A stretch of DNA of 37,268 bases from IMG/VR virus record IMGVR_UViG_3300045999_002292, positions 1 through 37,268 of that record. The stretch is one strand, 5' to 3'. Shown here in pieces: positions 2,329 through 36,011 of the stretch (within the stretch, counting starts at the first letter, position 1; each line of letters starts with the position of its first letter). The position numbers and the translations under genes were made by a program. The DNA is from a virus. The notes under the pieces were generated by a model, which saw nothing but the letters and a program-made list of their open reading frames with translations, searched no databases and was not told the origin of the DNA.

Positions 2329-2360
2329 ATTGTTAAAACGTTTTGATATTATTTTTGTTA
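2329..2360 (-). promoter_or_regulatory. Late promoter C, ECF-sigma type
   Basis: Read on the minus strand: TAACAAAAA (2360-2352), 7 nt, AAAACGTTTTAA, 2 nt, then ATATG of the protease gene. The same layout with identical spacing occurs at 9402-9433 and 35980-36011. AAC and CGT are 16 nt apart, the spacing known for ECF sigma promoters. CGT ends 9 nt before the ATG, so a transcript would be almost leaderless. The core AAAACGTTTT is also a perfect palindrome, so operator function is an alternative. Confidence 0.75.
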
Positions 2361-2365
2361 CACTT

Positions 2366-2398
2366 TTGTAATTTGTATTGAAATATTTTATACATTTG
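2366..2398 (+). promoter_or_regulatory. Bacteroidota-type promoter for the plus-strand gene at 2421
   Basis: A -7 box TACATTTG (2391-2398, consensus TAnnTTTG) lies 22 nt from the base of a TTG at 2366-2368 and 22 bases before the ATG at 2421. It is back to back with late promoter C. Confidence 0.6.
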
Positions 2399-2420
2399 TT
2401 TTTTAATAAATAAACATTCA

Positions 2421-2624
2421 ATGAATAAAGAAGACAAAGAATTTTTAATGATATTGTTATTTTCAATAATACCGATAATATTTATTTATCTTACTTTGTT
2501 AGGGTTTACTTTTTTATTTATTAATAAAATATCTTATACTCTTGGCTATTGGTTATATTTTCCTTTATCTATATTTTTAGGTATATTTATAACTTATTTT
2601 GTTGTAAAAAAAGCAAATAAATAA
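2421..2624 (+). CDS. Small two-helix membrane protein, moron-like
   Basis: This 67-residue protein has two hydrophobic segments at about residues 9-33 and 39-60 and a Lys-rich end (VVKKANK), so it is probably an inner-membrane hairpin. It is one of only two genes on the plus strand. It has its own host-type promoter, and its stop codon directly abuts the stop of the tape measure gene on the other strand (2624/2625). This placement suggests a separately transcribed accessory gene, for example for superinfection exclusion or lysis control. No family is recognised and the role is inferred only from topology and position. Confidence 0.65.
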   Translation: MNKEDKEFLMILLFSIIPIIFIYLTLLGFTFLFINKISYTLGYWLYFPLSIFLGIFITYFVVKKANK

Positions 2625-4172
2625 CTATCCCACACTCGCAGTATTAACTATATTTCTATCCAAAGCCTGAGCAGAAGTAACATTACCACTTACTACATAC
2701 GCTTGAATAGGTTGTTGTTGTTGTCCTAACCCCTGTGCAATTTGGTTAATACCCGTTCCTCCTACTAAATTAAAAGATGGGGCGGTTGGTGCTTGACCGC
2801 CTCCGCTTCCAGTATCACCTCTTGAAACATTACCGCCTCCTTTTGATGGGTCGGTTGCTAAAATCTTTTTAATTTGCAACGCACCAAACGCACCTGCAAT
2901 ACCTGCTTGTATAAATGGATAAGCGGGAAAGAATGTTGTAATAGGTGATGCGGACGCAGTTTTAAAAGTACTTAATACTGCCTCGTATGCACTAATTGTA
3001 GCCTGAGCAACCGCAACCCCTTTAGCAACCTTTGAACCTTCGCCAGCTATTTCAGAAATTAAAGCCAAAGTTTGTTGTGCCATTTGAACTTTAGCACCCA
3101 TTAATATTTCCTCTCTTCGTTGCATTTGGTCGGAAATATTCGCCTGAGCGTCTGCGGTTGCAATAAGTTCGTTAATTGCGTTGGTTGAATTTTCTTGCAG
3201 TCTTTCGCTATTGGCTATCGTTATCGCTTTCTGTCTTTCATCTTCGGCTTTTATAATTTTATATTTTAGCCTTTCAATCTCCGCTTCAAATTCTTCAATC
3301 TCTTTTAACTCTTGTGCTCGTCGTGCTTTTAATTCGTCTTGCTTTCTTTTATATTCGGCTCTTTCAGATTCTATTTCCTTTTGTCTAGCCTCGTTTCTTT
3401 TTGCCTCTCTATCTGCATCCGCTTGACCAATCTCAAAATTTCTCTTAGCTCTTGCTTGTCTTAAATATTCATCTAATTCCTCTTGGCTTTTTATTTCGCC
3501 ATTTCTAAACATCTCAGTAAGTTCTAACGACTTTTTAAGATAGTCCTCATTTGCTTTTAATTTTCTATTTGTAAACTCGTCATGCTTGTAAGCATTCAAT
3601 TCTGTGTACATTGTGCTTTTATCTAAAGCCTCTTTTGATTTTCTTTCAAATTCATCTAAGGCTCTTGTCGCATCTGAGGTTATACCAACAAAATCAGTAA
3701 CCGCATCTACTATTTTACCTATAAAATCCCCTACTATTTCAAGTGCAGGAATGAAACTCATAACTGCCTTTTTAACCTTATCAAAGTTCGCAATAAGCAA
3801 ACCTACTCCAACAACTAGTGCACCAATCCCCGTTCCTATCAAAGCAAGTTTAAATGCTTTCATTGCACCCGTAGAAGTACCCATTACAAAAGCATAGGCT
3901 TTTTGAGTTGCGATTCCTATTTTAGACTGTTTCCCAAATAGGGAACTCGCTTCGACCGCATCTTTAAAAGTCATTGCTAACCCACCCGTTGCATCGTTAA
4001 GTAAACCCATTGCCCCACCGTTATCTAAAACCGCTTGTTTGGTTTGCTTTTGCGTACTCTCAAATGATTCCGTTGTTTTATCCAACGCTTTCATCGAAGT
4101 GTCTAACTTATCAACGTTTGTTATTGCACTCGAGGTGTCAACGATTATATCTATTTTCTTTTCGATAGCCAT
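2625..4172 (-). CDS. Tail tape measure protein
   Basis: The 515 residues show the expected order: helical N terminus, hydrophobic membrane-like stretches at about 100-130 (ALIGTGIGALVVGVGLLIA) and around 145-165, a long charged coiled coil at about 190-350 (heptads rich in Glu, Arg and Lys), and an Ala/Gly-rich C terminus. This is a short tape measure, so the tail is likely short for a siphovirus. It follows the tail chaperone and tail completion genes in late operon B and is the operon's last gene. The upstream small gene overlaps its start by 22 bases. Family assignment is by architecture, not by a specific motif. Confidence 0.8.
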   Translation of the reverse strand: MAIEKKIDIIVDTSSAITNVDKLDTSMKALDKTTESFESTQKQTKQAVLDNGGAMGLLNDATGGLAMTFKDAVEASSLFGKQSKIGIATQKAYAFVMGTSTGAMKAFKLALIGTGIGALVVGVGLLIANFDKVKKAVMSFIPALEIVGDFIGKIVDAVTDFVGITSDATRALDEFERKSKEALDKSTMYTELNAYKHDEFTNRKLKANEDYLKKSLELTEMFRNGEIKSQEELDEYLRQARAKRNFEIGQADADREAKRNEARQKEIESERAEYKRKQDELKARRAQELKEIEEFEAEIERLKYKIIKAEDERQKAITIANSERLQENSTNAINELIATADAQANISDQMQRREEILMGAKVQMAQQTLALISEIAGEGSKVAKGVAVAQATISAYEAVLSTFKTASASPITTFFPAYPFIQAGIAGAFGALQIKKILATDPSKGGGNVSRGDTGSGGGQAPTAPSFNLVGGTGINQIAQGLGQQQQPIQAYVVSGNVTSAQALDRNIVNTASVG

Positions 4173-4303
4173 TTTCTCTTAACTTTATAAATTCCTGATT
4201 TTACCGTAGTAGGTATTTCGTGTTTTCCTTTTGCTATTTCCGTAAATTCTCCAGCACCGAAATAGTCTGATTTATGCAACGCTTCAATTATTTCTGTTAT
4301 CAT
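4151..4303 (-). CDS. Small hypothetical protein of the tail operon (50 aa)
   Basis: A 50-codon frame starts at the ATG at 4301-4303, which overlaps the stop of the preceding gene in an ATGA junction, and ends inside the start of the tape measure gene (22-base overlap). It fills a gap that would otherwise be empty in a tightly packed operon. The protein begins MITEIIEALHKSDYFGAGEF and ends very basic (KVKRKWLSKRK). The overlaps indicate translational coupling. No family is recognised; by position it may be a tail assembly factor or a small baseplate part. Confidence 0.6.
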   Translation of the reverse strand: MITEIIEALHKSDYFGAGEFTEIAKGKHEIPTTVKSGIYKVKRKWLSKRK

Positions 4304-6339
4304 GGTGTAATAGTATTATCAAAAGAATTAATTAAATTTAGTTTAGATATTCCGTTGGTTAAATTCAAAGTGAAATTATCTATTCTGTAATAGTTGTCTT
4401 TGATTTTTAAAACATCGTTTAGTTTTAATGAACTTAATATTTGTAAAGGCAAATGAGAAGTAAAAGCAAATGAGCGTCTTTTAATATTAAATATACTTTC
4501 GATATAGTTTTTATGATAATTAGTATAAAGAGTGTTTTGTATTAACGTACCATCCCAAGTGCTAAATTCAGCACCAAATACAGTTGAATAAGTTTTCGTA
4601 TCCAACGGGAATACATGGGAAGGGTTGTTAATGTCACCACCTAAAATAACTTGCGTTGCTGTATCATCTATAAAAGATAATTGTTTAGAACCCAAGTCAC
4701 TAACATCATTATAAAATATAACGGGTTTTGGATTAACCGCATTAAAATTTTCATCTATAATAGCACCGTATTGAATTGAAGTTAATTCGTTGTCATCAAT
4801 ATCTAATAATCTTTCAAATACAACTTGCTCAAACGGAATCTTATATTCCAATGTGTCACCGTCTAAAGGTTTACCATTTTCATCTGTAAGGTTTAACTCT
4901 TCATCACCATAAGCAATTGTAGTATTCTTTTTAAATTGAACATTTAATATTGTTGAAGGGTCTTCAAAATTGAAATTGATTTCTCTTAATATTTTACCTC
5001 TTGATACTTCTACATCTGAAAAATCAATGTATCTAGTTATGTCTATAAGTTTACCCTCAGCATAATAATTGTTTAAAGTGTTTATGTATATCTCGTCACT
5101 CTCTTGAAAGACAACCAATTTAAACATTTTAAACAACCCCGTTAAAAAATCAATTACTTTAATTTTAGGAATGTTTTTATTTATTTCAAAAGTTGGAAGT
5201 ATAGATTGACCAGTAGCCAAAACCTCCCCGTTTACGTTTGCGATACTGCCTATTTGGTCAATAAATAAAGTAGCATCAAAATCAAAACCTACACTTGTTT
5301 CAATAAAAAATGTATAGCTAAAATCTGTGCTTGGTACTGTTTGTATTGAAATTGTACCCGTACTGCTTGAACCCGTTCTATTTACTCTTAAAACTTCATC
5401 TCCAAAGTTTTTTACTACAATTGTATAAGGTACGGTTGTAAAGCCAACATCAGGATTTACTTCTAGCCTATAATTAAATCTATTACTATTAGTAAATAAA
5501 TCCACAATAAAAGTAGTTCCTGTCCATGTATCGGTAGTCAAATCAAAATTATTAACCGTTGGAACTATACTACTGAAATTTATCTTTTGTGATTGCTGAA
5601 TACTTTTATTTGAACCCTCGTTATTTAACCACAAATAAAGATTTCTAAAATCTAAACTATCAAAAAATTGGTCTGTAAAAGTTATACCGTAATCCGTTTC
5701 AATAGCATCTATAATAGCTTTCAATCTTAAAGAGGGTCTTAAATCATTCCATACAACACCGTTAGAAGTACCCGTTACTGCTATGTTAGATAGTGCATCT
5801 GTTTGAGTAGTGTTAGCTAAATCACTATCGTAAATATATCTTTTTTTAGCGAGTAAATTATAAACGATGTTTGGTGTTAAACCATCAAAGAATAAACCAT
5901 CTGTTAATCCCGTTTCAATGTTATCGGAATTATATAAATGGTTGTATGCCGTAAGGTCTAAATCTGATAACAAATCATCGCCTAACAAATCAACTAAACT
6001 AACTAAGTTACCAAAAAATACAATTGTATAGCTTGATGGATAACCGCTTTTAACATTAACTTTTTCTAATCTCCATTTACCTGTTTTATACGGCACTCCA
6101 TCTAATTCAATCCTACCATCTACTTTTACTCTTGCATCAAAAGTATTGTCTATGTTTGCGTTGTAGTAATGTTTAAATACTTGGTTATTAATATTGGTTG
6201 CAGGAACGGTAAAATCCTTTGAGTAATCTGTTGTATTCTTTGTAATATCTGAACTGTTAGTAATAGAAGATGTTACTTCAATATTTTCATCTTGAAATAA
6301 ATCTAATCTCGTATCTCCTATGTATAATTTAACAACCAT
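4300..6339 (-). CDS. Large tail-tip/baseplate protein, putative
   Basis: This 679-residue, mainly beta-rich protein has no signal peptide or membrane segment. The N-terminal 100 residues contain DYSKDFTVPATNINNQVFKH and GKWRLEKVNVKSGYPSSYTI, a pattern I associate with tail-tip proteins of Bacteroidota siphophages. It lies just upstream of the tape measure in the expression order of operon B and overlaps the 6339 gene by one base. By size and position it could be the tail hub or the distal tail protein. No catalytic motif is visible. The call rests on context. Confidence 0.55.
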   Translation of the reverse strand: MVVKLYIGDTRLDLFQDENIEVTSSITNSSDITKNTTDYSKDFTVPATNINNQVFKHYYNANIDNTFDARVKVDGRIELDGVPYKTGKWRLEKVNVKSGYPSSYTIVFFGNLVSLVDLLGDDLLSDLDLTAYNHLYNSDNIETGLTDGLFFDGLTPNIVYNLLAKKRYIYDSDLANTTQTDALSNIAVTGTSNGVVWNDLRPSLRLKAIIDAIETDYGITFTDQFFDSLDFRNLYLWLNNEGSNKSIQQSQKINFSSIVPTVNNFDLTTDTWTGTTFIVDLFTNSNRFNYRLEVNPDVGFTTVPYTIVVKNFGDEVLRVNRTGSSSTGTISIQTVPSTDFSYTFFIETSVGFDFDATLFIDQIGSIANVNGEVLATGQSILPTFEINKNIPKIKVIDFLTGLFKMFKLVVFQESDEIYINTLNNYYAEGKLIDITRYIDFSDVEVSRGKILREINFNFEDPSTILNVQFKKNTTIAYGDEELNLTDENGKPLDGDTLEYKIPFEQVVFERLLDIDDNELTSIQYGAIIDENFNAVNPKPVIFYNDVSDLGSKQLSFIDDTATQVILGGDINNPSHVFPLDTKTYSTVFGAEFSTWDGTLIQNTLYTNYHKNYIESIFNIKRRSFAFTSHLPLQILSSLKLNDVLKIKDNYYRIDNFTLNLTNGISKLNLINSFDNTITP

Positions 6340-6914
6340 TAAACATTGTTTATTTCGTTAAACGCATATTCAAATTCAATCTCGTAATTAATTAAACGGT
6401 CTTTTTGTCTAGTCTTATACTCCAATGAAGTACTACCTAAATTAATTGGTGTCAACAAATCATTTTCGTAAATCCATGCTTTCTCGGTTAGCATAAGTTG
6501 TTTAAAAATATCGTTCATTTCCTCAGCAACAAAACCGCTATTGATTTTAATTTTAGATTTACCGTTAATGTTATATTTAACGTATTGATGATTCCCTGAT
6601 AACGGTTGTCCTCTGTCACTTTCAAACATTTCCGAAGTAGTACTTATGCTTTTAGTATTTGCTTTAAAAAATGGCAATACCATAACCGCCCCTTCTTTAT
6701 TTTGAAAGTAAACATCTAAAGAAGTAAATCTACACTCGTCTTCTATTACGAGAGTAATTGTTTCCCCGTTATAAACCACTTCGATATAATCGTCTGTTCC
6801 CGCTTCTGAAATATTAATATTAATATACTTAACTTTCTCTGAACTGTCTATTGTTGTGCCCTCGCTTATGCTTTCGCTAAGTGTACCTAAAGGAAAAGAA
6901 TCTATTGTTATCAT
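6339..6914 (-). CDS. Hypothetical tail/baseplate protein (191 aa)
   Basis: It is acidic and beta-rich (for example YININISEAGTDDYIEVVYN). Overlaps with both neighbours (4 bases with the 6911 gene, 1 base with the 4300 gene) place it firmly in the tail operon. No domain is recognised. A small baseplate component that works with the 679-residue protein is the most economical idea. Confidence 0.5.
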   Translation of the reverse strand: MITIDSFPLGTLSESISEGTTIDSSEKVKYININISEAGTDDYIEVVYNGETITLVIEDECRFTSLDVYFQNKEGAVMVLPFFKANTKSISTTSEMFESDRGQPLSGNHQYVKYNINGKSKIKINSGFVAEEMNDIFKQLMLTEKAWIYENDLLTPINLGSTSLEYKTRQKDRLINYEIEFEYAFNEINNV

Positions 6915-7669
6915 GGTATTAAATTATAAACGTTACTATAAACTACTTCTCCTTGCAACAAATCGAATAGACTTAATCTAAATTCATAATCACCGCCCGT
7001 TAAAGGAGGTGCAACAATTAAATTATAAGGACTTGTAACCGTGTCAGCGTATAGATTCCAATCAGGGTCGTCCGTTTCACGATAATAAACAGTTATATCA
7101 CTTGTAGCAACTCTATTCGTAGTAAATGTTATTTGGTATTCGTCACCTACGGAAACCTCCGTTACTAAAGTTATTGTAATTACTAACCCTGTCACCGCTG
7201 GCTCATCAATTAAAATAGGAACTACAAAAACACCCTCTCTATTCACTTTATAATCTTGAATAGGAATTAGTATTTTATTCGTTGGTGGTTGCGGGTTTTC
7301 TCCTTCCATCCCATAACCGTAACCTCTTAACAATAGTTGTATTGTTTGATTTCTTGGTATTACACTATCGTCGTAATAGATTTCTGTTTGCACCCACTTT
7401 TGATTATTACCATCTACTAATTCGGTAATAGTAACTGCGTTTGCATCAAAGTCTATAAAATCATTTACTAACCTTGCTATGTTAATCTTATCCGTTCCTG
7501 TTGATGCCGTTGGATTAAACTTTGTTATTTCATAAGTTGCCGTTGCGGGTGTTGCCGTTTTTAATCCATCCCAAACGTAAACTTTAAGCGTGTACTTTTG
7601 GCAAGTTATACCTGTTGCAACATCAACAAAAGGCACGTTAATACAAAACGGTGTTAAACTTTTAATCAT
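6911..7669 (-). CDS. Tail protein with fibronectin III-like C terminus
   Basis: The protein has 252 residues. The last 95 residues resemble an Ig or fibronectin III fold: VTEVSVGDEYQITFTTNRV, then a Y-R-E-T-D-D-P-D-W segment typical of FnIII strand C, ending LSLFDLLQGEVVYSNVYNLI. The N-terminal part (ITCQKYTLKVYVWDG) is also beta-rich. It overlaps both neighbouring genes by 4 bases. Such modules decorate tail tubes or baseplates and bind host surface sugars in other phages; here this is inference. Confidence 0.55.
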   Translation of the reverse strand: MIKSLTPFCINVPFVDVATGITCQKYTLKVYVWDGLKTATPATATYEITKFNPTASTGTDKINIARLVNDFIDFDANAVTITELVDGNNQKWVQTEIYYDDSVIPRNQTIQLLLRGYGYGMEGENPQPPTNKILIPIQDYKVNREGVFVVPILIDEPAVTGLVITITLVTEVSVGDEYQITFTTNRVATSDITVYYRETDDPDWNLYADTVTSPYNLIVAPPLTGGDYEFRLSLFDLLQGEVVYSNVYNLIP

Positions 7670-8190
7670 CCTACTATGTATTTTAATGTACTATCTAAAT
7701 CTAAACTATAAGCCTCAACTACTTCATTCGGTAATCTTTTAAATGCCAACTCAAAAGGTCTTGATATAAAGTTTGTTGTTTCTAAACCTTTATTCCAAAT
7801 GGCTCGTCTAATTAAAAACGCAGTCGATTCATAACTTAGGAATTTACCTTGCTTGTCTTTAAATTGAAAACGTTTTCTTCTTACCCATCCATCAATACCT
7901 TTTGTTAGTCCTCCTTTTCTTCCAGTTCCCGTTCCAAACTTATACGGACTTTGCGGAGCACGTTGCGAACTCGATACACCCTTAACCCCTTTATCTATAA
8001 AATCCCAATACTCTGAGGCTTTACCAAAATCAATTGAACTATAAAAACTATTCTTACCTACACTAACTGTGCTATTCATTTCTTTGTATAGCGTGTTAGT
8101 ATCTCTTTTGCCTTTACGTGTAAGGTTTGCCCTAGCTTGTTTAATAACTTCTTTGTTGAAGTCTTTTAAAACCTTTTCTAAATTAGTCAC
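7666..8190 (-). CDS. Tail completion protein, HK97 gp10-like
   Basis: The protein has 174 residues with a basic helical N terminus (LEKVLKDFNKEVIKQARANL), a central glycine-rich segment (GTGTGRKGGLTKGIDGWVRR) and a helical end. This is the layout of the HK97 gp10 family at the head-tail interface. It sits between a tail-terminator-like gene and tail-tip genes, the usual place of gp10. It overlaps the 8183 gene by 8 bases. The family is judged from pattern and order only. Confidence 0.55.
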   Translation of the reverse strand: MTNLEKVLKDFNKEVIKQARANLTRKGKRDTNTLYKEMNSTVSVGKNSFYSSIDFGKASEYWDFIDKGVKGVSSSQRAPQSPYKFGTGTGRKGGLTKGIDGWVRRKRFQFKDKQGKFLSYESTAFLIRRAIWNKGLETTNFISRPFELAFKRLPNEVVEAYSLDLDSTLKYIVG

Positions 8191-8650: not shown

Positions 8651-9401
8651 CTTAATTTATTCTTTAACATTTCTCTATTAAAAATATCCTCTTTTAACTT
8701 ATTCTTATCAATCTTATGTGCTAAGTAGGTATGTATTTCGTAAACATTCATTTGCCCTACTTGGTTAATCTTTGTTATGTCATCGTTTGCTAATTCGGCG
8801 AATGTTGCATACCACCCCCACTTCTCAAAGTAGTCACTAGCGTTTTGACCTTCTTTAGTTCCGCCTCCGTAGATTTCAGGGTATGTATCCGTAATTCTTT
8901 TGCTAAATTGAGAAAAAAAAACAATGCACCGTTAACCAAGTGTAAAGGTAATTGCTTCATTGCCTCCTCCGTTGACTGCGTTCCGTTGTATGGTTCTATT
9001 TGATAGTTACCAAACTTATCCTCGTTTATAATCGGTCTAAACAGTACTGCCATTACTACATGAAGATTCTTAACATCCATTCCCGCAGTAGTTAAGTCTG
9101 CAAATTCAAATCCTGATATGTTATCGAGGTTAGGAATAAAGCCGTATTTCTTACCGTTAAAGTCAAACTTATTTGTAAACTCAATAGTATGATTTAATGA
9201 GTTATCAATAATATCTAAACATTCTTTACGGTCTTTACTTGTCAAAAGGTCGCATGATTTTTCATCTAACTTTGTGAATATTGCTATCTTTTTACTTTGA
9301 AATTCCATTTCGGAATAGTCATGATTCTCTAACAATAGATTATACTTTTGGAACTGCCCCAAAGTAATTTCTCCAATATGTTCTGGCAATATTAGCTTCA
9401 T
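8647..9401 (-). CDS. Tail assembly chaperone, long frameshifted form (gpGT-like)
   Basis: The frame opened at 9401 reaches a run of nine T residues (minus strand; 8913-8921). A -1 shift there joins residue 163 to another 88 codons that end at 8647. The extension reads SQFSKRITDTYPEIYGG, then EKWGWYATFAELANDDITKI, then MNVYEIHTYLAHK, the kind of W-x-W plus helical sequence found in the T domain of G/GT tail chaperones. The extension has no start codon of its own, fills an otherwise empty 140-base gap, and its stop overlaps the next ATG. Predicted product: 251 residues. Known role of the family: coating the tape measure and recruiting tube subunits. Confidence 0.72.
8790..9401 (-). CDS. Tail assembly chaperone, short form (gpG-like)
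   Basis: Zero-frame product of 203 residues, first gene of late operon B. It begins MKLILPEHIGEITLGQFQKY, a common opening of Bacteroidota phage tail chaperones. After Phe163 the zero frame continues with 40 residues of lower complexity (HTLKSTEAELKKVKTLVTTL) and stops at 8790. In gpG/gpGT systems the unshifted product is made in excess and the shifted one is rarer. The start codon lies directly behind late promoter B, so the message should be nearly leaderless. Confidence 0.72.
   Translation of the reverse strand: MKLILPEHIGEITLGQFQKYNLLLENHDYSEMEFQSKKIAIFTKLDEKSCDLLTSKDRKECLDIIDNSLNHTIEFTNKFDFNGKKYGFIPNLDNISGFEFADLTTAGMDVKNLHVVMAVLFRPIINEDKFGNYQIEPYNGTQSTEEAMKQLPLHLVNGALFFFLNLAKELRIHTLKSTEAELKKVKTLVTTLRSGGGMQHSPN
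8913..8921 (-). other. Slippery site for -1 ribosomal frameshifting
   Basis: Nine consecutive T residues on the minus strand, read in frame as TTG TTT TTT TTT CTC. The T-TTT-TTT heptamer permits both tRNAs to re-pair one base upstream. The -1 frame is open for 88 codons beyond the site. No strong downstream hairpin was obvious by eye. Confidence 0.7.
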
Positions 9402-9433
9402 ATAATTAAAACGTTTTAAGTCGATTTTTGTTA
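9402..9433 (-). promoter_or_regulatory. Late promoter B, ECF-sigma type
   Basis: Minus-strand TAACAAAAA (9433-9425), N7, AAAACGTTTTAA, TT, ATATG of the chaperone gene. It lies in the 36-base gap after the terminase gene, so tail genes can be transcribed apart from terminase. Spacing is identical to the copies at 2329-2360 and 35980-36011. Confidence 0.75.
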
Positions 9434-9437
9434 TTTG

Positions 9438-10634
9438 CTATCTTATTTCTATTCCGTAAGTCTTACCCAAATGAAACACAACGTTATAACGTATTGCGTC
9501 AATAGCATGGTTATAGTTATCAATGTATAACCTACTGCCTTTATCTAAGTAAACATAGTTATTTAATTCCTTAGCTATGTTTTGGCTCGTAGGTTCTACT
9601 ACTATTTCGTAATCCTGCATTAAAGACACCCCAAACTCAATAGGTGGTTTGTCGCATCGAGTTATATTATTTCCCATTGAGCGTAACTCATCTATTAACC
9701 TACCCTCAGCATTATCCCCTATAATTAATTTACGCTCTGCAAATTCTTTATTAAGTGAGTATATTTCTGAGGTTGTTAACTTAGTTTTATAGAAACATTC
9801 TTTAACGTAGATTTTCTTTTTGGTTTTATCTATTGCAACTTCTGTTAAGGTTGTAGGGTCTATGCTATAACCGTAATCCTGACCGAATGAAGTTTGTAAG
9901 TTATCGGGGTTGAACGCTCCGAAACTCCAATTCGTAAACACAACTCCTTCGGCTTTGTCTAACCAACCACCAAGTATAACATGATTGTATTTATTATAAT
10001 TGTTTTCTTTTATTTGTTCAATTTGATTTAAGAAACTTTCTGAAAGGTTTTCGATGTTATCTAAGTAGGTAGTATGAATGTAGGTAGTATCATTCTTTGT
10101 AATATTACTTCCCGCTTGAACTCCTTTTGATTCAAAGAAACGATTGTAAATAAAATGTTCCTTTGTCGCTGGGTTTAAAATAAGTATAACTCTGTTCTGA
10201 ATATCTTTAGTCCTAATTGAAAAGTCTATCTTATCGAATGTATCTTCATCATTTAGTTCCTCCGCTTCATCTAGTACCCATGTAGTAACACCCGCTAAAG
10301 ATTTAAGGTTTGCCGTTTGCGTTCCTGAGCTTGTTTTAATTCCTTTGAATAAAATCTTTGAGCCTGTCTTAATGTTTATGATTTCATCTTTAGTAATATA
10401 GAAGTCGCTTTGTAGATTTGCGGTTTCAATCTTATCTATAAACTCAGGAATAATTGAAACGTGAGCGGAGGTAAGTGTGTATCTAGTGAATAGAATAACA
10501 TGATTACTTTCATAGGTAAGCAAAAGTAAAAAGAGGTTAATGGAATATGATTTCCCACTACCTCTACCACCTGAAACAATAAAGTATCTACTATCGCTTC
10601 CGAGTGCGTTATATTTACTCTTTATCGTTATCAA
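9438..10634 (-). CDS. terL: Terminase large subunit
   Basis: This 398-residue ATPase/nuclease drives DNA packaging. Walker A is at residues 22-29 (GGRGSGKS) and Walker B with the catalytic Glu is VLDEAEE near 133. The nuclease domain shows the acidic positions expected of an RNase H fold: GQDYGYSIDP, IIGDNAEG and NHAIDAIRY. The layout fits the PBSX/Terminase_3 group. It overlaps the small-subunit gene by 20 bases. This group is often linked to headful or cos packaging, which cannot be told apart here; headful packaging would agree with circular permutation. Confidence 0.93.
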   Translation of the reverse strand: MITIKSKYNALGSDSRYFIVSGGRGSGKSYSINLFLLLLTYESNHVILFTRYTLTSAHVSIIPEFIDKIETANLQSDFYITKDEIINIKTGSKILFKGIKTSSGTQTANLKSLAGVTTWVLDEAEELNDEDTFDKIDFSIRTKDIQNRVILILNPATKEHFIYNRFFESKGVQAGSNITKNDTTYIHTTYLDNIENLSESFLNQIEQIKENNYNKYNHVILGGWLDKAEGVVFTNWSFGAFNPDNLQTSFGQDYGYSIDPTTLTEVAIDKTKKKIYVKECFYKTKLTTSEIYSLNKEFAERKLIIGDNAEGRLIDELRSMGNNITRCDKPPIEFGVSLMQDYEIVVEPTSQNIAKELNNYVYLDKGSRLYIDNYNHAIDAIRYNVVFHLGKTYGIEIR

Positions 10635-10899
10635 ACTTAAACAATTCTTTTATACTAAAGTTATTAATATTGTGTGTTGTTTCAACTGTTTCTTTTGGTT
10701 TGCCGAATAGGTGCTCACTAATAAACAACTGTCCTCTTTGTGATTCCATTAATGTATGTACAAGTTTGGTCTTTGCCTCCTCCTCCGTTTCAACCGAATA
10801 AAAAGTCTTTAAAGCGTTTGCGAATAAAGTATTAACTTTCTCCTCGTCCGCTTTTGTTTTTCTGCCATTTCCTGCTATTGCTCCTCCTTTACCTGCCAT
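10615..10899 (-). CDS. terS: Terminase small subunit, probable
   Basis: A 94-residue protein with a Gly/Lys-rich start (MAGKGGAIAGNGRKTKADEE), a central helix pair and an acidic C terminus. Its gene overlaps the start of terL, the usual tandem order, and it is the right size for a small TerS. Its role would be recognition of the packaging start site. No clear HTH is visible, so the assignment relies mainly on position. Confidence 0.65.
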   Translation of the reverse strand: MAGKGGAIAGNGRKTKADEEKVNTLFANALKTFYSVETEEEAKTKLVHTLMESQRGQLFISEHLFGKPKETVETTHNINNFSIKELFKFDNDKE

Positions 10900-10922
10900 C
10901 GTTAAAAGTATTGTTTAAACAA

Positions 10923-11174: not shown

Positions 11175-11316
11175 TCTTAAATTTATTTAATAGTTGTTTT
11201 GTCGTTTGTATTCCATCTTCATCGCTTTCGCTAATCCAATAGTGTTTGTTTTTTATTACATTACATAATCTATAATGATTTTCAGCTAACCATTCTGCAA
11301 ACCTAATTGCTTTCAT
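11161..11316 (-). CDS. Small hypothetical protein (51 aa)
   Basis: The ATG is at 11314-11316 and the frame ends at 11161, overlapping both neighbours by 14 bases. The protein starts MKAIRFAEWLAENHYRL and contains HYWISESDEDG near residue 26. Similar 50-60 residue proteins with an opening R-F-A-E-W-L are, to my knowledge, frequent in Bacteroidota phages but have no function. The continuous overlaps support the frame. Confidence 0.6.
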   Translation of the reverse strand: MKAIRFAEWLAENHYRLCNVIKNKHYWISESDEDGIQTTKQLLNKFKNENN

Positions 11317-11704
11317 ATGTTTCAAATACTTTATCAATCATTTCAATCATCTTAATCATTTCTTTCGTTGAACTTCCGCATGAAGGACATTCAGGCTTCC
11401 AATAAGGCTTACTAAATACCTCTGAATATAGTTTGCAAATGTATAGCACTTGCTCCCATTGTAGCTTTAAAGTTCTTGTTTCTCTAAACGCTTTCCATTC
11501 ATTATATTCTTGCTCATTCAAACATCGTGCCGTATATCTTTTGGGTAAGATGTTATCAAACTTTTCTTTTCGCTTATTACATCCGCAGTCTTTACCGTTA
11601 GCGAATATCTCAACTACTTTTGCAATTCCTGTGGATTCTAAAACGTTTTTAATATCGCTTCCTAAACCTCCATGTTCAATTGTTACTTTCTTTTTTCTTG
11701 GCAT
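11303..11704 (-). CDS. Cys-rich hypothetical protein, possible zinc ribbon
   Basis: The 133-residue protein has a basic start (MPRKKK), a CGC pair near residue 39 and a CPSC pair near residue 107, consistent with one metal site formed across the chain. It overlaps the sigma factor gene by 22 bases and lies upstream of terminase. It may bind DNA or RNA; the combination with the neighbouring sigma factor suggests, but does not show, a transcription role. No family is recognised. Confidence 0.55.
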   Translation of the reverse strand: MPRKKKVTIEHGGLGSDIKNVLESTGIAKVVEIFANGKDCGCNKRKEKFDNILPKRYTARCLNEQEYNEWKAFRETRTLKLQWEQVLYICKLYSEVFSKPYWKPECPSCGSSTKEMIKMIEMIDKVFETYESN

Positions 11705-12129
11705 TTGTCTTTTATTTTTTCTTTTGCAAACTTTACTTTTCTATAAACGAACCCATAGTTAATGTTAAACTCTTTCTCGATATCTCTTAAAGACATTTCG
11801 TTTGCTAATAGTATTAATTCACGTTCACTAAAAGTTAGTTCGTTATAAGCATCTAAAATGATTTTATCTATATCATCAACTTCAAACTCATTAACATCCG
11901 CTTCTAAGTTATAAAAATCATCTAAATGTAAAGTTCCTTTTTTACGTTTTAAATCTAAAAAAATGTTTCTTATTACTATAATAACGAAAAAATCGTTAAT
12001 TTGTTTTTTACAGTCATAAAGTTTAAGATACATTTCGTTTACAAGGTCGTCAGCAAGGTATCTATCTTTGCAGATATTAAAGGCTATCTTTCTCCAATAG
12101 GTGTCTTTCTTTGCTAACTCTTCTAACAT
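11683..12129 (-). CDS. ECF-like RNA polymerase sigma factor
   Basis: The 148-residue protein has just the two domains of ECF sigma factors. Region 2 spans about 8-64: WRKIAFNICKDRYLADDLVN, then EMYLKLYD and FVIIVIRNIFLDLKRKK. Region 4 spans about 92-142: LTFSERELILLANEMSLRDI, then a helix-turn-helix FNINYGFVYRKVKFAKEKIK. An acidic linker joins them. The family recognises promoters of the type AAC-N16-CGT, and three such elements head the late operons at 2329, 9402 and 35980. I infer that this factor redirects host polymerase to late genes. The gene overlaps its neighbours, so it is part of an operon expressed before the late genes. Confidence 0.82.
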   Translation of the reverse strand: MLEELAKKDTYWRKIAFNICKDRYLADDLVNEMYLKLYDCKKQINDFFVIIVIRNIFLDLKRKKGTLHLDDFYNLEADVNEFEVDDIDKIILDAYNELTFSERELILLANEMSLRDIEKEFNINYGFVYRKVKFAKEKIKDKCQEKRK

Positions 12130-12365: not shown

Positions 12366-12378
12366 AAAAGCAAAGATA

Positions 12379-21270: not shown

Positions 21271-22161
21271 TTAGAAACTGCATACACAATTAAAATCGTC
21301 CTCCGTTTGTAACTCCATTTTTATTGTTCTTGGTAATTCTGAAAGTTTTACTAAATCGGCTATTGATTTATGTCCACGAAAAGAAACGCTATTATATTTT
21401 TGTTCTTCTTTTTTAAACCAGTCGATAAATCTTGTACCAAAAAGTATATTTTCAATTAATGTATCTTCTGATTTTTTCCAGCATAGTTCACAATTTCCAT
21501 ATTTACCGTGCATTTCTAATTTAAACGGTTGTTTTTTCCAATATTTATTTAAGTCTAATTGCGATATTGGTGTATAAAAATCAGTTAATAAAGGAAATAT
21601 CTTTTGCTTTTGTTCTTTTATTTCTGCCCACGAAATTCGCTTTGGCATATCTTCTTTTCTAAATCCTATTGCGATTTTATAATTATTTACTCCAAAAATA
21701 TCATCACACAATTTTTTAGCAGGAAGCGTCTTTAACATTTCTGAACAATAAGGCGCATCTTGGTTTGGTAATCCCTCAAATATTCCTTTGTTTTTGTGTT
21801 CAATCATTTTAGAAAATGGCTTTGCAGTCATATTCATATTTTCCCAATCAACAATTTTGTATTTAACTCCAGTTCCTAAATCATTTGAATAAACGCCTTC
21901 TATTTTTACTATTGGCATTTCCCAATACTTTTCAATTTTTTTAAGAAAATCAATCGTTTCAGGTCTTTCCATTCCTGTATTGCAAAACACAAATACTTTT
22001 TCATAATTAGCGTATTTCTCATTTGTTTGAATATGTCTTGCCATCATTGCGGAACTTCTACCACCCGAAACAGTTATCATTAACGACCCATCACTTCCTG
22101 TAACACTCGTTTGGCAAGATTGGGTTTCGGGTTTAATTTGATGTTGGTCTTGTACTTTCAT
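21271..22161 (-). CDS. Cassette gene: PAPS-reductase/PP-loop family protein
   Basis: 296 residues. The PP-loop SGGRSS is at 32-37 (MITVSGGRSSAMMARHI), followed by VFVFCNTGMERPETIDFLKK, the standard pattern of the PAPS reductase/adenylyl-transferase superfamily. Cys clusters (APYCSEMLKTLPAKK, NCELCWK, FNCVCSF) resemble 4Fe-4S or zinc ligands in phage members. Biosynthetic sulfate reduction is unlikely without partners; DNA sulfur modification or nucleotide chemistry is an alternative. In island II it is the last cassette, with only a short TAAC-rich remnant behind it. Confidence 0.75.
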   Translation of the reverse strand: MKVQDQHQIKPETQSCQTSVTGSDGSLMITVSGGRSSAMMARHIQTNEKYANYEKVFVFCNTGMERPETIDFLKKIEKYWEMPIVKIEGVYSNDLGTGVKYKIVDWENMNMTAKPFSKMIEHKNKGIFEGLPNQDAPYCSEMLKTLPAKKLCDDIFGVNNYKIAIGFRKEDMPKRISWAEIKEQKQKIFPLLTDFYTPISQLDLNKYWKKQPFKLEMHGKYGNCELCWKKSEDTLIENILFGTRFIDWFKKEEQKYNSVSFRGHKSIADLVKLSELPRTIKMELQTEDDFNCVCSF

Positions 22162-25756: not shown

Positions 25757-25757
25757 A

Positions 25758-30028: not shown

Positions 30029-30029
30029 A

Positions 30030-30416: not shown

Positions 30417-30417
30417 A

Positions 30418-30684
30418 CTATAAAAATAAAATAATTAAACTTCCAATTCCCGAACCTATTGCACTATAAAAAACATCGTTCCAATCCCATTGTACACCGT
30501 TATATCTATATGTTTGTTCGCCCTCCCAAATAACACCTCCACAATAACCAATAAACAACGCTATAATGATTATCATATAATTTTGCCACTCGGTTACATT
30601 GTGTAAAATTAAAGCCGTTAAAACTCCTATTAAGAATCCTATTCCTAAATGTTTGTGATAGTTATTTTTAAAAAAGTCTTTCAT
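30418..30684 (-). CDS. Holin candidate, three membrane helices
   Basis: 88 residues with hydrophobic segments at about 14-29 (IGFLIGVLTALILHNV), 35-51 (NYMIIIIALFIGYCGGV) and 73-88 (AIGSGIGSLIILFL), and charged ends. Size and topology fit a class I holin. It is 1 base after the coiled-coil gene and in the same operon as the endolysin. Confidence 0.55.
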   Translation of the reverse strand: MKDFFKNNYHKHLGIGFLIGVLTALILHNVTEWQNYMIIIIALFIGYCGGVIWEGEQTYRYNGVQWDWNDVFYSAIGSGIGSLIILFL

Positions 30685-30688
30685 AGTA

Positions 30689-31276
30689 TTAATTTAAAAC
30701 CCACCCGAAAACGTTAGGAGCCCAAACATTATTTGCACTCGTACTTCTATAAACGGGGTCGTTAATTGTTGGAAAATGTACTAAATCATCTATTTGGTAA
30801 GCGTCTTGTGCCCCTGTTGGTTGCACCCATACACCAATAGTTCCTGCGGGTTGAACCTCAGTAAATAAAGCGGGCACGTTAATAGGTCGCCAATCACTTT
30901 GACTTGTATGTGCTTGTACGCACTTGTATAACTTTAATTCGTTAGTATTATTAAAATCCTGACATTTTTCTCCTAAAGCATAAGATTTCTCATTTGCATC
31001 CCACAAAGGATAAACAGACTGAACCGTTAAAGCATCCGAATCGGGTAAAGTTTGTTGCTGAGTTACAACCGCATCTAAAGCTAATTTCTGAGCAAGTGCA
31101 ATTTGTTGTTGTTTGGCTTTCTCAATTAATTCCGATTGAATCTGTGCGTTTTGTTGCTCTTGTATTTCCTCATCTGAAATAATGATAGTATCATAAGGTA
31201 CTCCGTTTGGAATAGTTGTAATATCCAAAGTTTCAATACTTGTATTTTCTAAAATGTATCTATATTTCGTTATCAT
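30689..31276 (-). CDS. Fibre/adhesin with carbohydrate-binding (CBM5/12-like) module
   Basis: 195 residues. N-terminal strands and a Gln-rich helix (EEIQEQQNAQIQSELIEKAK) are followed by a C-terminal chitin-binding-like module: YPLWDANEKSYALGEKCQDF, YKCVQAHTSQSDWRPINVP and FTEVQPAG, with conserved Trp and Tyr residues. Such modules in tail fibres attach to cell-surface polysaccharides. It overlaps the 31273 gene by 4 bases. Confidence 0.6.
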   Translation of the reverse strand: MITKYRYILENTSIETLDITTIPNGVPYDTIIISDEEIQEQQNAQIQSELIEKAKQQQIALAQKLALDAVVTQQQTLPDSDALTVQSVYPLWDANEKSYALGEKCQDFNNTNELKLYKCVQAHTSQSDWRPINVPALFTEVQPAGTIGVWVQPTGAQDAYQIDDLVHFPTINDPVYRSTSANNVWAPNVFGWVLN

Positions 31277-32943
31277 GTTAAAGGAGTTGTTAATTTTAAA
31301 TCAATGTGTACATAATCTAAATAAATATTTCTCGTTGTTGTACCCGCGGTTTTTACGATATAACTTTGTAAAGATAGTTTTTTTGTTTGTCCCGTTGGTA
31401 TGTTGGTTGTATGCGTTGCCACCAAAGAATTGTTTATAAAAAACTGTACACTCGTGCCGTTCCCATTTACTATAAAAGATAGTTTTTGAAATGTAGTAGC
31501 ACTAACCGCAACACCCGTATCTGTGATTGTTCTAGTTGAATTATTTATAGTAACAACTTGCCAATTTGGAGAGGCTGTATTGTTTGTAGTTCCCGCAACC
31601 CCACCTTCATCATAAACAAAAGCTATACAATCTCCTGCATTGTTTGTTCTAGTATTAAACAATCCCGAAAAAACTAAATATCTTTCTGTTCCCGTTGATA
31701 AAGTAGGACAAACAATTAAAGCATTATGTTCTAATCTTCCAACACCTACGGGAATCGAACCCGTACTAAAACCAATAAAAGCACCCGCAAATCCTGTCGT
31801 AGTTGTTCCTGTTAAACATTCTAAAACACCTATGTTAGAAGATGTTATTTGTGTTGGGTTAGTTGTTGAACGAATAGGTATTGCACTAGAACCCGCACCG
31901 CTAGTGTTTAGGTTTAATAAAGTATCGTTTATTGATTGCCCTGTATCGTTTGACCCTAATCCGTAAAAATGATTGAAATAATTTATTCCGTATTTATAGT
32001 TTGACTTTTCAAGTTCACTTATCGGTAATTCATATTTTAAATTAAAATTATCGAGGTAAACTGCGTTAATTGTACCATCGTCTTTTCTAAATCTAAAAAT
32101 TAAACTATAGCTGTCTGAATAAGCGGATAAATCAACGGTAAATGTTTGTGAAGATGTTGTCAATTCCACATCTGTATAAGTTTCAATAGTTGTAAATGAA
32201 CCGCCTCCATTTGTTGAAACTTGAAACAAAAAAATAACATCTGGAATCGAATCAAAAGTTTCTCTCCACAAATCAAAAGACACTTCTAAAGGATTGTTAA
32301 CTGTTGGTGTTCTTAAATCCATGTTTTCAACATCAAAAACAACTTTAGAACCATCCCAAATAGGCTCAATTATTAATGATTCCCATCCATCAGGAGGAAA
32401 TGGTGCTAGATTAAATTTTTGCGTTATTTGAAAAGGGTTTCTTTGTAGTAATCCTTCTATTTGTCCTTGCGTTTTATTTGCAAAAATGGTTACACTATCA
32501 TCGGTTGAAATAGGCTCATTAGACAAAGCATCCATTAAACCTATAACATCTACTGTTGGGTCGAATGAACCGCCTCCGCTAGTGATTATATTATAAGTCC
32601 ATGTCGCACCGTTGTAAAAAACGTAAACTAAATTATTTGATGTGAAGTTAAAACCATCGATTAGAAAATCACCGTTTACGCTATAAACAACGTAACCTCT
32701 TGCAACGGTTGGAGTAGGGCTTGTAATTTCTATTCCTGTATCATTTCCTATTGAATAATAATTATCGTATTGAGCGGTTATGTCGGAAGTTACAATAATC
32801 CATTCTGCCGTTCCGCCACCACCTAAATCTGCTATATCCTGAGTAGTTGCTTTAACAGTAATACCGCCTTGAACAATTGGCACTTCCTCCGTTCCTGTTA
32901 AAGTTCCCGCTCCTGTTAATTCACTAATTTTTTTGTCAGCCAT
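31273..32943 (-). CDS. Long tail fibre protein (556 aa)
   Basis: Begins MADKKISELTGAGTLTGTEE, VPIVQGGITVKATTQDIADL, a tail-attachment motif common to fibres of Bacteroidota phages. Two Gly/Ser/Thr-rich jelly-roll-like regions follow, at about 210-310 and 340-550 (the second with GNGTSVQFFINNSLVATHTT, concanavalin/LamG-like). Probably the receptor-binding fibre. It shares one base with the preceding gene. Confidence 0.68.
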   Translation of the reverse strand: MADKKISELTGAGTLTGTEEVPIVQGGITVKATTQDIADLGGGGTAEWIIVTSDITAQYDNYYSIGNDTGIEITSPTPTVARGYVVYSVNGDFLIDGFNFTSNNLVYVFYNGATWTYNIITSGGGSFDPTVDVIGLMDALSNEPISTDDSVTIFANKTQGQIEGLLQRNPFQITQKFNLAPFPPDGWESLIIEPIWDGSKVVFDVENMDLRTPTVNNPLEVSFDLWRETFDSIPDVIFLFQVSTNGGGSFTTIETYTDVELTTSSQTFTVDLSAYSDSYSLIFRFRKDDGTINAVYLDNFNLKYELPISELEKSNYKYGINYFNHFYGLGSNDTGQSINDTLLNLNTSGAGSSAIPIRSTTNPTQITSSNIGVLECLTGTTTTGFAGAFIGFSTGSIPVGVGRLEHNALIVCPTLSTGTERYLVFSGLFNTRTNNAGDCIAFVYDEGGVAGTTNNTASPNWQVVTINNSTRTITDTGVAVSATTFQKLSFIVNGNGTSVQFFINNSLVATHTTNIPTGQTKKLSLQSYIVKTAGTTTRNIYLDYVHIDLKLTTPLT

Positions 32944-33503
32944 TATAATAATATTTTAAACCCGTTTTCTTGTAAAATAAAATCTCCGTTTTCTTGCAAT
33001 AAGAATCCACCGTCAATTATAAACCCTGCATCTTCTAAATCTTCTATAAACAAACTACTTCTGATTTCTTGCCCCTCAAAACTAAAATTAAAGCCGTTTA
33101 ATTCACTTTTACCGCCTCCTGTATTATAACTAAAGTTTGTACATTCTAAACCGTTGTAAAGTCCTAATATTTTATAGTTCCCGTTTCTGTCTTGAATTAT
33201 AATTCTATAATCTTTTTTAACTAACTTTTGTAATTCAAAAAAATCATCAGTACCTATTAAAGTAAATTCTAAATTTTGATTATAAAATTTACCTCCTTCA
33301 TTTTCTTGCATCGGTTCGTTAAAACTAATAACATTTGTTTCAAATTCAAAGATTGTAGTAGTAGGAAAACTTGTTAAATACTCTCCATCTGTAATTATTT
33401 GACTTCTTAAATACTTTACAAATGGAAATAAGTATAATTTTCTTACCCCTCCTAAATTATCTTTGCATCTTCTATCAAAACCCTGTGTTATTCTAAGTAC
33501 CAT
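32943..33503 (-). CDS. Tail-tube-like protein, paralogue of the 36452 gene
   Basis: 186 residues. It shares with the 36452-36961 product the order G-x-x-R-x-C-K, GGVRKLYLFPFVK (here)/GGVQSLFLFNFVE (there), a FEF motif, a Q-x-x-x-x-T-L-x-G-T/I-D block, QDRNGNYKILGLYNG/KDRNGVYHAVGLDDA and TGGGKSELNGFNFSFEG/TGGAKTDMNGYTITG. I read both as tail-tube folds. The C terminus has a tandem LLQENGDFILQENG repeat. It follows the connector gene (overlap 16 bases), so it may form an adaptor ring rather than the tube. Confidence 0.62.
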   Translation of the reverse strand: MVLRITQGFDRRCKDNLGGVRKLYLFPFVKYLRSQIITDGEYLTSFPTTTIFEFETNVISFNEPMQENEGGKFYNQNLEFTLIGTDDFFELQKLVKKDYRIIIQDRNGNYKILGLYNGLECTNFSYNTGGGKSELNGFNFSFEGQEIRSSLFIEDLEDAGFIIDGGFLLQENGDFILQENGFKILL

Positions 33504-34018
33504 GGTTTTCTATGTAAATTATCATCTAATTTCCATCCCGCCGTAACACTTAAATCTTTAACCGCATTTACTTCATCCTGACACGTTTTATATTCGGGCA
33601 ACATATTTTTACAAATCCATTTATTAAAACGTGAAATATAAGACTGAGCAAAATCACTATATTTTTTGGCTAAAAATTGTGCTTCTCTTTGGTCTACTAC
33701 TTCGCTATTCTCAGGAGCGTGTTTATATAAACCTCCGTTAGTTAACATATAACTTGCAATCGTTATAAACTCAGCAATAGCACTATTTTTGGTTATTGGT
33801 TTTACAAATTCGTTAAATAATATCAAATAATCACCCGTTAAAGCATCGTTTTCAAAGTCATCTACTATTTTATCGTACAAAATAGAACCCAAAAGAGGCT
33901 CAATTACTGTTACTTGTACGTTAGCAATGCAGAAAACATACTTATCTATATCAACATTGCCCCCTAAAACGGTGGTTGCGGTGATTTCTTCGGGTCTTAT
34001 AAATAGTAATTCAGCCAT
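33488..34018 (-). CDS. Head-tail connector protein, DUF6712-like
   Basis: 176 residues, mostly helical: MAELLFIRPEEITATTVLGG, then VTVIEPLLGSILYDKIVDDF, and SYMLTNGGLYKHAPENSEVV, the pattern of the DUF6712 family that lies after portal in Bacteroidota phages. Ends in a Trp-rich tail (WKLDDNLHRKPWYLE). One base after the portal gene. Likely an adaptor beneath the portal. Confidence 0.62.
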   Translation of the reverse strand: MAELLFIRPEEITATTVLGGNVDIDKYVFCIANVQVTVIEPLLGSILYDKIVDDFENDALTGDYLILFNEFVKPITKNSAIAEFITIASYMLTNGGLYKHAPENSEVVDQREAQFLAKKYSDFAQSYISRFNKWICKNMLPEYKTCQDEVNAVKDLSVTAGWKLDDNLHRKPWYLE

Positions 34019-34019
34019 T

Positions 34020-35681
34020 TTATTTTGGTAAAAAGCCTTGATTAGGCATATTAATTGGTTTTATTGATACTAAATTGTCATTAACGGGTACTTTATAACC
34101 TCGTCTTCGTGCCTCGCTTGTGCTTATTTGCTCGGATAAAGGACTATTTACATCGATTTTAACTCCTTTTTTAACGTAAATTAGCCTAAACCATTGATGA
34201 TAACAGTTTGCACCGCCTTTATAAAGCCATATCGAGTATGTATTTGCACCATTTGCACCCCATCCAGGATTAACTGCTCTGTTTTCCATTGCAATTATAT
34301 CTTCTTTTCGGTAAACCTTACCCGCTGACATCATTTTTTGACAAAATTCACGCTCAGGACTTTCTGAACCACTATAACGGTATCTAATTATAATATCTTT
34401 ATTGTCCTGTTCACTATTTGCGTTAGGATTTGCAACCCCTGTACTCGCTAAACTAAACTTTTCTTCTTCTTCATAGTCAACTTCAATCTCATGTACTAAA
34501 TCGTATTCTTCTAAGTCGATAACCTCGCCTTTATCTAGTAAATCATCTAAATCAGTCTTTTTTTTTTCACTACAACAAACATGAGTGCTTAATTGAGTAC
34601 TTGTTTGTGGTAATTCTGTTAAAGGTTTGAAATATAACTGTAAATTCATGTTATAAAAGTTCGTAATATCGTCTAACGCATCTAAAATATAGTTTTGTTT
34701 AGGTTGTATTACTCTTTTTACTAATTGTGCCTCTGCGGTGTCTAATTCATCTGCATTATTACCAAAACCTGTGTTATCTTTAATACCAAATAGCATCGGA
34801 CTTGTAACCATGTGAGCGGTTAACAATTGTTGTCTAGCCTCCTGCGTTAAATACTGCCATTGTTTGTGAGCATCGTTTACGGTTATCGGGGTAACTGTTA
34901 TTTCTGCATCCCTACCGTTAAAAGATAGTACAAATTTACCCGCGTTACTTGACCCAGTTAATTTAGATTTTATTTTTTTTTCTAAAAGGTCTTTCTCATC
35001 AGGCAACATTGAGTTACCATCGGGAATGTTTATAATATACCCAAAAGACAAACCGTTTTGAATGTGTGAAATATAATAGTTAGCTATTTCCTCTTCCATT
35101 TCAGCATAAGGCAAACCAGCGATATAATCAGGGTCGCTAAAATACTCTTTACCCGCTTTGTATGGCTTAACTACATAAATTTCTATCTCGTCTTTAGTAG
35201 TTCCAAATGTAGGGTAATAGGTAGGCTCATATTTAGTGTATTTAGTCCAATCTTTGCAATACCAATAACCCTCAATCTCATCATCTTCATTCGCTATTTG
35301 TGGTGCAATTTTATTAATAGGCAAATGGTAAATTCCTGCGATGTCTTTTCTGTCTTTAGTCTTGACTACTTGCATAGCACACTCGCCAAACATACAAAAG
35401 TCGTCAACTATATTTCTAAGGTCTTTTTTTGAAAGTAAAGAAACAAATTTAACCCAATCGGTAGTATTCGTACTTGCGTTTTTAGCTTTTATGCCTTGCC
35501 CATAAGTAAGGTTGGTATATGCTTGTAAAATACTTGCATTTGTAGGACTGCCGTTTCTTCTATCAATTATGTACTGATAGAATGAATTATTACGACCATT
35601 TAAAACCCAATCTTTAGATTTATTTTCCTCGATTTTTGGTCTTATGTAGTTGTTTAGTTGTATTAATCTTATATCACTCAT
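34020..35681 (-). CDS. Portal protein fused to a C-terminal MuF-like domain
   Basis: 553 residues. The portal core (about 1-365) contains the wing and stem pattern (VDDFCMFGECAMQVVKTKDR; AHMVTSPMLFGIKDNTGFGN; YILDALDDITNFYN). An acidic linker (372-410) follows, starting with Lys codons in a run of ten A residues, and then a C-terminal domain (RYSGSESPEREFCQKMMSAG, NRAVNPGWGANGANTYSIW, CYHQWFRLIYVKKG) like the MuF/head morphogenesis region. The fusion is known in Bacteroidota phages. It overlaps the upstream 101-residue gene by 8 bases. Confidence 0.82.
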   Translation of the reverse strand: MSDIRLIQLNNYIRPKIEENKSKDWVLNGRNNSFYQYIIDRRNGSPTNASILQAYTNLTYGQGIKAKNASTNTTDWVKFVSLLSKKDLRNIVDDFCMFGECAMQVVKTKDRKDIAGIYHLPINKIAPQIANEDDEIEGYWYCKDWTKYTKYEPTYYPTFGTTKDEIEIYVVKPYKAGKEYFSDPDYIAGLPYAEMEEEIANYYISHIQNGLSFGYIINIPDGNSMLPDEKDLLEKKIKSKLTGSSNAGKFVLSFNGRDAEITVTPITVNDAHKQWQYLTQEARQQLLTAHMVTSPMLFGIKDNTGFGNNADELDTAEAQLVKRVIQPKQNYILDALDDITNFYNMNLQLYFKPLTELPQTSTQLSTHVCCSEKKKTDLDDLLDKGEVIDLEEYDLVHEIEVDYEEEEKFSLASTGVANPNANSEQDNKDIIIRYRYSGSESPEREFCQKMMSAGKVYRKEDIIAMENRAVNPGWGANGANTYSIWLYKGGANCYHQWFRLIYVKKGVKIDVNSPLSEQISTSEARRRGYKVPVNDNLVSIKPINMPNQGFLPK

Positions 35682-35979
35682 ATCGGTAGAATCCTGCGGT
35701 TAATTTGTAACTTTGTGTTGCTTGGTCTGTTGCTATTATTTTGCCTCTATAAACTATATCGTTACCCTCTTTAATAAGTATTTCGTACTTGTCATTGTTT
35801 TGGAAAGTAAAGTCAAAAGATATATTTGTAAATCCGTTATGCGTTACATTGTAATTTGTAACCTCAGTAGTTACACCCGTTGCGGGATTTGTAAGTACTA
35901 ACTCCAATTCGTTAAAATCGTAATAACGAGGCACGAATAAAAACGAATGCGATGTATTATCAGGATTAACAACTTTCAT
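35674..35979 (-). CDS. Small beta-rich protein heading late operon A (101 aa)
   Basis: Begins MKVVNPDNTSHSFLFVPRYY, continues with short strands (GFTNISFDFTFQNNDKYEIL) typical of an Ig-like structural protein. It is the first gene behind late promoter A and overlaps portal by 8 bases. Probable minor virion protein. No family is recognised. Confidence 0.55.
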   Translation of the reverse strand: MKVVNPDNTSHSFLFVPRYYDFNELELVLTNPATGVTTEVTNYNVTHNGFTNISFDFTFQNNDKYEILIKEGNDIVYRGKIIATDQATQSYKLTAGFYRYE

Positions 35980-36011
35980 ATTATTAAAACGTTTTTTAAG
36001 GTTTTTTGTTA
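35980..36011 (-). promoter_or_regulatory. Late promoter A, ECF-sigma type
   Basis: Minus-strand TAACAAAAA (36011-36003), N7, AAAACGTTTTAA, TA, ATATG. Same spacing as promoters B and C. It is back to back with, and shares bases 36006-36008 with, the plus-strand promoter below. Confidence 0.75.

Follow-up and report, generated by a model that had tools for sequence, protein, structure and literature searches.

The 37,268-nt stretch of viral DNA analysed here (hereafter the window) encodes a 148-aa ECF-type sigma factor which, as we infer, steers the host core RNA polymerase to the late operons of the phage through three late promoters placed directly ahead of their first start codons. We assign this reading a probability of roughly 0.87; it is drawn from sequence comparison, with sigma binding, start sites and timing all inferred in the absence of transcript, binding or knockout data. 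Its core, a phage ECF-type sigma acting on late operons via an AAC-N16-CGT layout, had been put forward in an original prediction made from this DNA alone, and now gains comparative support from co-occurrence, common targets, spacing and co-variation.

The sigma gene lies on the minus strand at 11683-12129, ahead of terminase and upstream of the second late promoter (P2). Its product consists of sigma2 and sigma4 alone, sigma1.1 and sigma3 being absent. Pfam Sigma70_r2 and r4_2 matched it with scores under their gathering cutoffs, and the NCBIfam sigma70-ECF model TIGR02937 matched residues 13-142, covering both regions, at 43.4 bits (cutoff 42.9); the best family-level match after TIGR02937, NF058625, reached 34 bits, under its cutoff of 130. 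Sigma70_r2 was found in 32/32 members of the sigma family and TIGR02937 was likewise matched by all 32. Sequence similarity to PDB entries was remote (best E 0.011). An AlphaFold model of the protein gave a pLDDT of 83.7 with a domain arrangement that is not confident (pTM 0.47); its best Foldseek matches were Mtb SigE, SigL and SigH, RpoE, AlgU, E. coli sigmaE and SigW, which are ECF or ECF-type factors, and region 4 of the model superimposed on the DNA-bound (-35) region 4 of E. coli sigmaE with an rmsd of 1.7 A over 61 columns. Judged by its domain order and predicted fold, the 11683-12129 product is an ECF sigma, and the two-domain ECF-like factor first proposed at these coordinates is upheld. 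A domain search of the neighbouring 78-aa and 133-aa genes returned no recognisable anti-sigma domain. The 133-aa protein (11303-11704, minus strand), a possible sigma partner, contains Cys and its gene overlaps the end of the sigma gene. In most relatives the gene right behind sigma is homologous to Nonlabens gp35.

The motif TAACAAAAA-N7-AAAACGTTTTAA-NN-ATATG occurs three times in the window, always on the minus strand (2326-2360, 9399-9433 and 35977-36011), exactly where three identical copies had been predicted. The cores are identical and the differences are confined to the 7-nt spacers and the 2-nt gap. Tolerating up to 3 mismatches in a search of the window brought in no additional site, 100 dinucleotide shuffles of the window contained no match, and TAACAAAAA-N7-AAAACGTTTTAA without the ATG was also limited to 3 occurrences in the entire record. 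Taken by itself, AAC-N16-CGT is frequent, with 21 sites in the window when both strands are counted; only 3 of the 21 are followed by N9-ATG, where 0.2 are expected from mononucleotide shuffles (maximum 2 in 300). A position weight matrix (PWM) derived from relatives gave scores of 20.8-23.3 to the three gene starts; the highest-scoring other real gene start among 1058 ATGs reached 5.7. Both the 16-nt gap of the ECF layout, with CGT 9 nt from the ATG in 3/3 elements, and the absence of the motif from any other gene start are thus borne out. The putative late promoters are P1 at 2329-2360 (-35 AAC at 2357-2359, -10 CGT at 2338-2340, ATG at 2328), P2 at 9402-9433 (AAC at 9430-9432, CGT at 9411-9413, ATG at 9401) and P3 at 35980-36011 (AAC at 36008-36010, CGT at 35989-35991, ATG at 35979), all on the minus strand and each with its -10 box 9 nt before the ATG. 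The ends of the record (1-127 and about 37142-37268) carry a repeat of ~127 nt that differs in its last base; the contig is therefore probably a whole genome, circularly permuted, in which the three elements are probably the full set.

All the genes headed by these elements lie on the minus strand. P1 precedes the head maturation protease (Peptidase_S78_2 / XkdF, 1216-2328), first in its operon, whose likely start is not the TTG at 2466 that the ORF finder gave. P2 stands immediately past the terminase stop and precedes a 203-aa gene (8790-9401), the first past the terminase large subunit and the head of the tail operon. P3 precedes a 101-aa small gene (35674-35979), which heads the portal operon directly upstream of the portal protein (34020-35681; PHROG 33693, E 7e-158). 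The protease and portal blocks named earlier as late operons stand; the label of tail chaperone for 8790-9401 lacks support, as the best match of this gene is PHROG 32199, of unknown function. The terminase large subunit (9438-10634, minus strand) sits between the sigma gene and P2 and is preceded on the same strand by a small gene (10615-10899) which, from its position, is probably the small terminase. Upstream of P3, past a tail gene at 36452-36961, the minus strand carries a terminator-like hairpin, ACCCCGTA...TACGGGGT-TTTT (36403-36424); the terminator scan, only slightly above chance level, was used solely for this feature. A scan of the window for E. coli-type sigma-70 promoters stayed at chance level, and Rfam and tRNA scans gave no matches. 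Small divergent ORFs with host-type TTTG/TAnnTTTG promoters occupy the plus strand at 2391-2624 and 36005-36395, facing P1 and P3, and the -33 TTTG of one of these promoters (36005-36008) overlaps the late -35 box of P3; comparable overlaps of host-type and late promoters occur at several late promoters of the Nonlabens phages. Elsewhere on the minus strand (21271-22161) is a protein that by its sequence resembles a PAPS-reductase-like (adenine nucleotide alpha hydrolase) enzyme.

We then compared about 160 related phage loci, made up of 80 contigs from a portal-anchored search and 80 loci from an independent sigma-anchored search. Searching for sigma and elements as a pair, as had been suggested earlier, found them together, targeting the same genes at a fixed spacing. 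The bipartite element stood ahead of the gene upstream of portal (P3) in almost all of the portal-anchored set, and ahead of the P2 gene in nearly all sigma-anchored loci reaching that gene. Elements in relatives were recognised by aligning orthologous starts, and were also sought freely in the 300 nt upstream of these starts, counting unique loci and requiring a score of at least 11 for P2. In this free search an element was found for the P3 gene in 55/55 unique loci (50 at exactly 9 nt), for the P2 gene in 57/67 (45 at 9 nt, 7 at 8 nt) and for the protease in 30/41 unique relatives (20 at exactly 9 nt). Because P3 elements served to train the PWM, the P3 scores are partly circular; the distances and the P2 and protease results are not. 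Related phages are, moreover, non-independent samples. The usual layout is AAC-N16-xGT-N9-ATG, with a spacer of 16 in the great majority and, at P2 and P3, 8-9 nt between element and ATG in almost every case. Several phages without an element at the P2 gene have one ahead of the next gene instead. No element could be recognised at the scored position for about a quarter of protease orthologues, and in several others 13-21 nt separate it from the ATG; leaderlessness at P1 is therefore not universal among them. Any of C, A, T and G can be the first base of the -10 box, and CAT or TAT replaces xGT in a few phages; 'CGT' is not a strict -10 requirement, and a strict CGT regular expression misses most relatives because of this variable first base. 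One relative, a 50% GC phage or prophage of the family on a contig of Flavobacterium sp. MFBS3-15 (L231 / L235), has the sigma gene and all three elements, which take a CATTA form and have GC-rich spacers; this relative supports flavobacterial hosts for the family.

The sigma gene was present in 18/29 portal-bearing records of at least 12 kb, including 8/8 of the near-complete ones (at least 32 kb), and a 28-kb relative lacking the sigma lacks the element too; many other sigma-less records are fragments that possibly do not reach the sigma locus. Within one genome, the P2 and P3 cores differ at 1.3 of 18 bases, as against 5.3 between genomes, a similarity whose observed sum was reached by 0 of 100,000 permutations (p<1e-5). 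Promoter distance correlated with sigma distance (Mantel r 0.50) and continued to do so when TerL distance was removed (partial r 0.48, 0 of 5000 permutations), while promoter and TerL distances showed no correlation given sigma. At the level of single residues, a recognition helix reading NYG goes with A at position -33 in nearly all phages that have it, and one reading NYQ or NYA with G. These results bear on the alternative that survives best, namely that the elements, though late promoters, answer to a host ECF sigma or to a second activator encoded by phage or host, and that the phage sigma has another role. Host flavobacteria do possess several ECF sigmas and CGT-box promoters (PMC9723704), and the Flavobacterium sp. 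genome with the phage-like locus gave two further weak ECF matches. We nevertheless regard such a division of labour as improbable, since the promoter variants are concerted within each genome and track the phage sigma independently of terminase, and since sigma and elements occur together on phage genomes and are missing together from the sigma-less relative.

We give still less credence to a reading of AAAACGTTTT as a palindromic operator bound by a repressor or activator rather than as a -10 box, the former of which the original prediction had itself held out as an alternative. The sequence is a perfect palindrome in 3/3 window copies, but most relatives lack the palindrome (AGTTTTAATAGT, CGTTATAATA, TTGTTCTTAT, CATTATATA); what they retain is the xGTT half, the AAC box and the spacing. 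Allowing one mismatch, AAAACGTTTT by itself is no more frequent in the window than chance predicts, and it is also found within genes at 7867 and 11640. The operator reading was dropped, only xGTT being conserved. Weakest of all is the notion that the elements are nothing more than sigma-A sequences or A+T-rich signals for translation initiation, common by descent. The A+T richness of the phages and the abundance of A at -3 and -6 in flavobacterial start regions (PMC6847099) speak for it. Against it, the host sigma-A boxes of the same phages (TTTG/TAnnTTTG) lie anywhere from 4 to 116 nt from the ATG, the element is missing at other gene starts, conservation is concentrated in the -35 and -10 boxes (0.8-1.7 bits at most positions) and drops in the variable spacer between them (0.1-0.5 bits in its middle), and the 50%-GC relative retains the boxes.

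In the favoured reading, in which the phage sigma acts at P1, P2 and P3, region 4 of the sigma would recognise the TAAC(AAA) -35 box and region 2 the xGTTnTA -10 box, 16 nt apart. Host sigma-A promoters (TTTG / TAnnTTTG) would serve the early and replication genes together with the sigma-terminase operon, after which the phage sigma would activate its three promoters. A late element is absent ahead of the sigma operon in the window; just ahead of the 78-aa gene leading into the sigma gene, a host-type -7 box, TATCTTTG (12371-12378, minus strand), is a partial match without a clear -33 TTTG, and we infer it to be a candidate promoter of that operon. The middle expression of the sigma proposed earlier has no more than this box behind it. 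Within the sigma gene itself, an AAC-N16-CGT-N9 layout (11980-12010, minus strand, AAC at 12005) is common to close relatives. It is not clearly above a synonymous-codon null (4/40 in the window) and is possibly an internal promoter toward terminase, or merely conserved coding sequence.

The position of the boxes also allows the start of transcription to be predicted. A sigma -10 box usually lies at -12 to -6 from the transcription start. In the elements it occupies the same interval counted from the A of the ATG, and T is found at -1 in 125/132 element starts compared with 24/44 control starts; transcription would thus most likely begin at the AUG or within about 2 nt of it. The protease/capsid, tail and portal operons would then yield leaderless or nearly leaderless mRNAs, the protease exceptions carrying short leaders of about 4-12 nt. 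That late mRNAs are leaderless is suggested by the fixed 9-nt spacing, set against the 4-116 nt of host-type promoters, with start sites inferred from position only. Flavobacteria lack Shine-Dalgarno sequences (PMC6847099), and their not relying on them is compatible with leaderless late translation. Leaderless mRNAs make up only 5.5% in F. psychrophilum (PMC9723704), so that making late messages without leaders would be a peculiarity of the phage. In the P3 upstream regions of nine unique relatives (L037, L044, L051, L049, L045, L019, L027, L120 and L117), an 11-12 bp hairpin with T behind it has the -35 box (GTAACA or GTCACA) as its loop: the late promoter and the terminator of the operon before it overlap there. 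We lean, with reservations, towards a more far-reaching version of the model, in which sigma recognition is fused with translation start: the -10 box would be locked to the AUG of truly leaderless late operons, the -35 box of some relatives would be nested in the terminator hairpin loop of the preceding operon to form a compact terminator/promoter/start-codon unit, and the family would hold dozens of co-evolved sigma-promoter pairs.

T4 gp55 and the SPO1 factors gp28 and gp33-34 are late or middle phage sigmas which redirect the host core polymerase to middle or late promoters, as we infer for the window sigma. To our knowledge, none of them is a classical ECF sigma2-sigma4 protein, and their promoters differ. 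Another comparable factor is Xpf of the B. subtilis prophage PBSX, listed as a sigma2-sigma4 factor of Group IV (PMC10141391). Like the window sigma it is a phage- or prophage-encoded two-domain sigma-like protein tied to the induction of phage genes, and the NCBIfam model 'positive control sigma-like factor' weakly matched the window sigma (region 4, E 1e-4). However, Xpf belongs to another phylum and its sequence similarity is only remote, and the window system differs in having several late promoters fixed 9 nt from start codons and spread family-wide. Among cellular factors, the Bacteroidota ECF sigmas of the PG0214 / GFO_1088 family share the ECF family and the CGT -10 box, with CGT-box ECF promoters described in F. 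psychrophilum SM6 (PMC9723704), and the sub-cutoff NF058625 match of the window sigma is a further likeness; they serve cellular regulons, T9SS components included. Also comparable is the system of Inhavirus, the Nonlabens phages P12024S and P12024L, with the same gene order and a related sigma 31% identical to that of the window (gp33/gp35, annotated merely as hypothetical with Sigma-70 region 2). These phages carry seven AAAC-N16/17-CGTTA elements 8-9 nt ahead of late genes, one of which precedes genes leading into terminase. They differ from the window in the number of elements (seven, not three) and in a spacer mostly of 17 rather than 16 nt; their portal is 44% identical, and the record has no annotated promoters. 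P12024L (L016, 16409-18674) also encodes a 2OG oxygenase, a glucosyl-HMC glucosyltransferase and a methyltransferase, and P12024S (L015, 16313-17855) has an ATPase/GNAT gene in the counterpart place, an exchangeable base-modification cassette.

A search of the literature turned up no description of a late sigma of the ECF type in flavobacteriophages, or of its promoters; this is weak evidence given that subscription papers were mostly outside the search. The earlier view that a late switch built on an ECF sigma is unusual must be narrowed: an ECF-like late sigma of a phage or prophage has a precedent in PBSX Xpf, while the late promoters of this family were not found described. Phage late sigmas are already known; what is new is a widespread flavobacteriophage system that joins promoter and start codon in one unit, with the reservation that no transcription was measured and that timing and start sites are inferred. 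It offers a testable account of the late-gene switch in widespread and little-studied flavobacteriophages, one that requires no known regulator other than a single 148-aa sigma, and predicts leaderless late mRNAs in hosts reported to have few of them. The family also supplies many matched sigma-promoter pairs, and the pairing of A or G at -33 with the NYG or the NYQ and NYA helices could make an ECF recognition code readable from natural variation.
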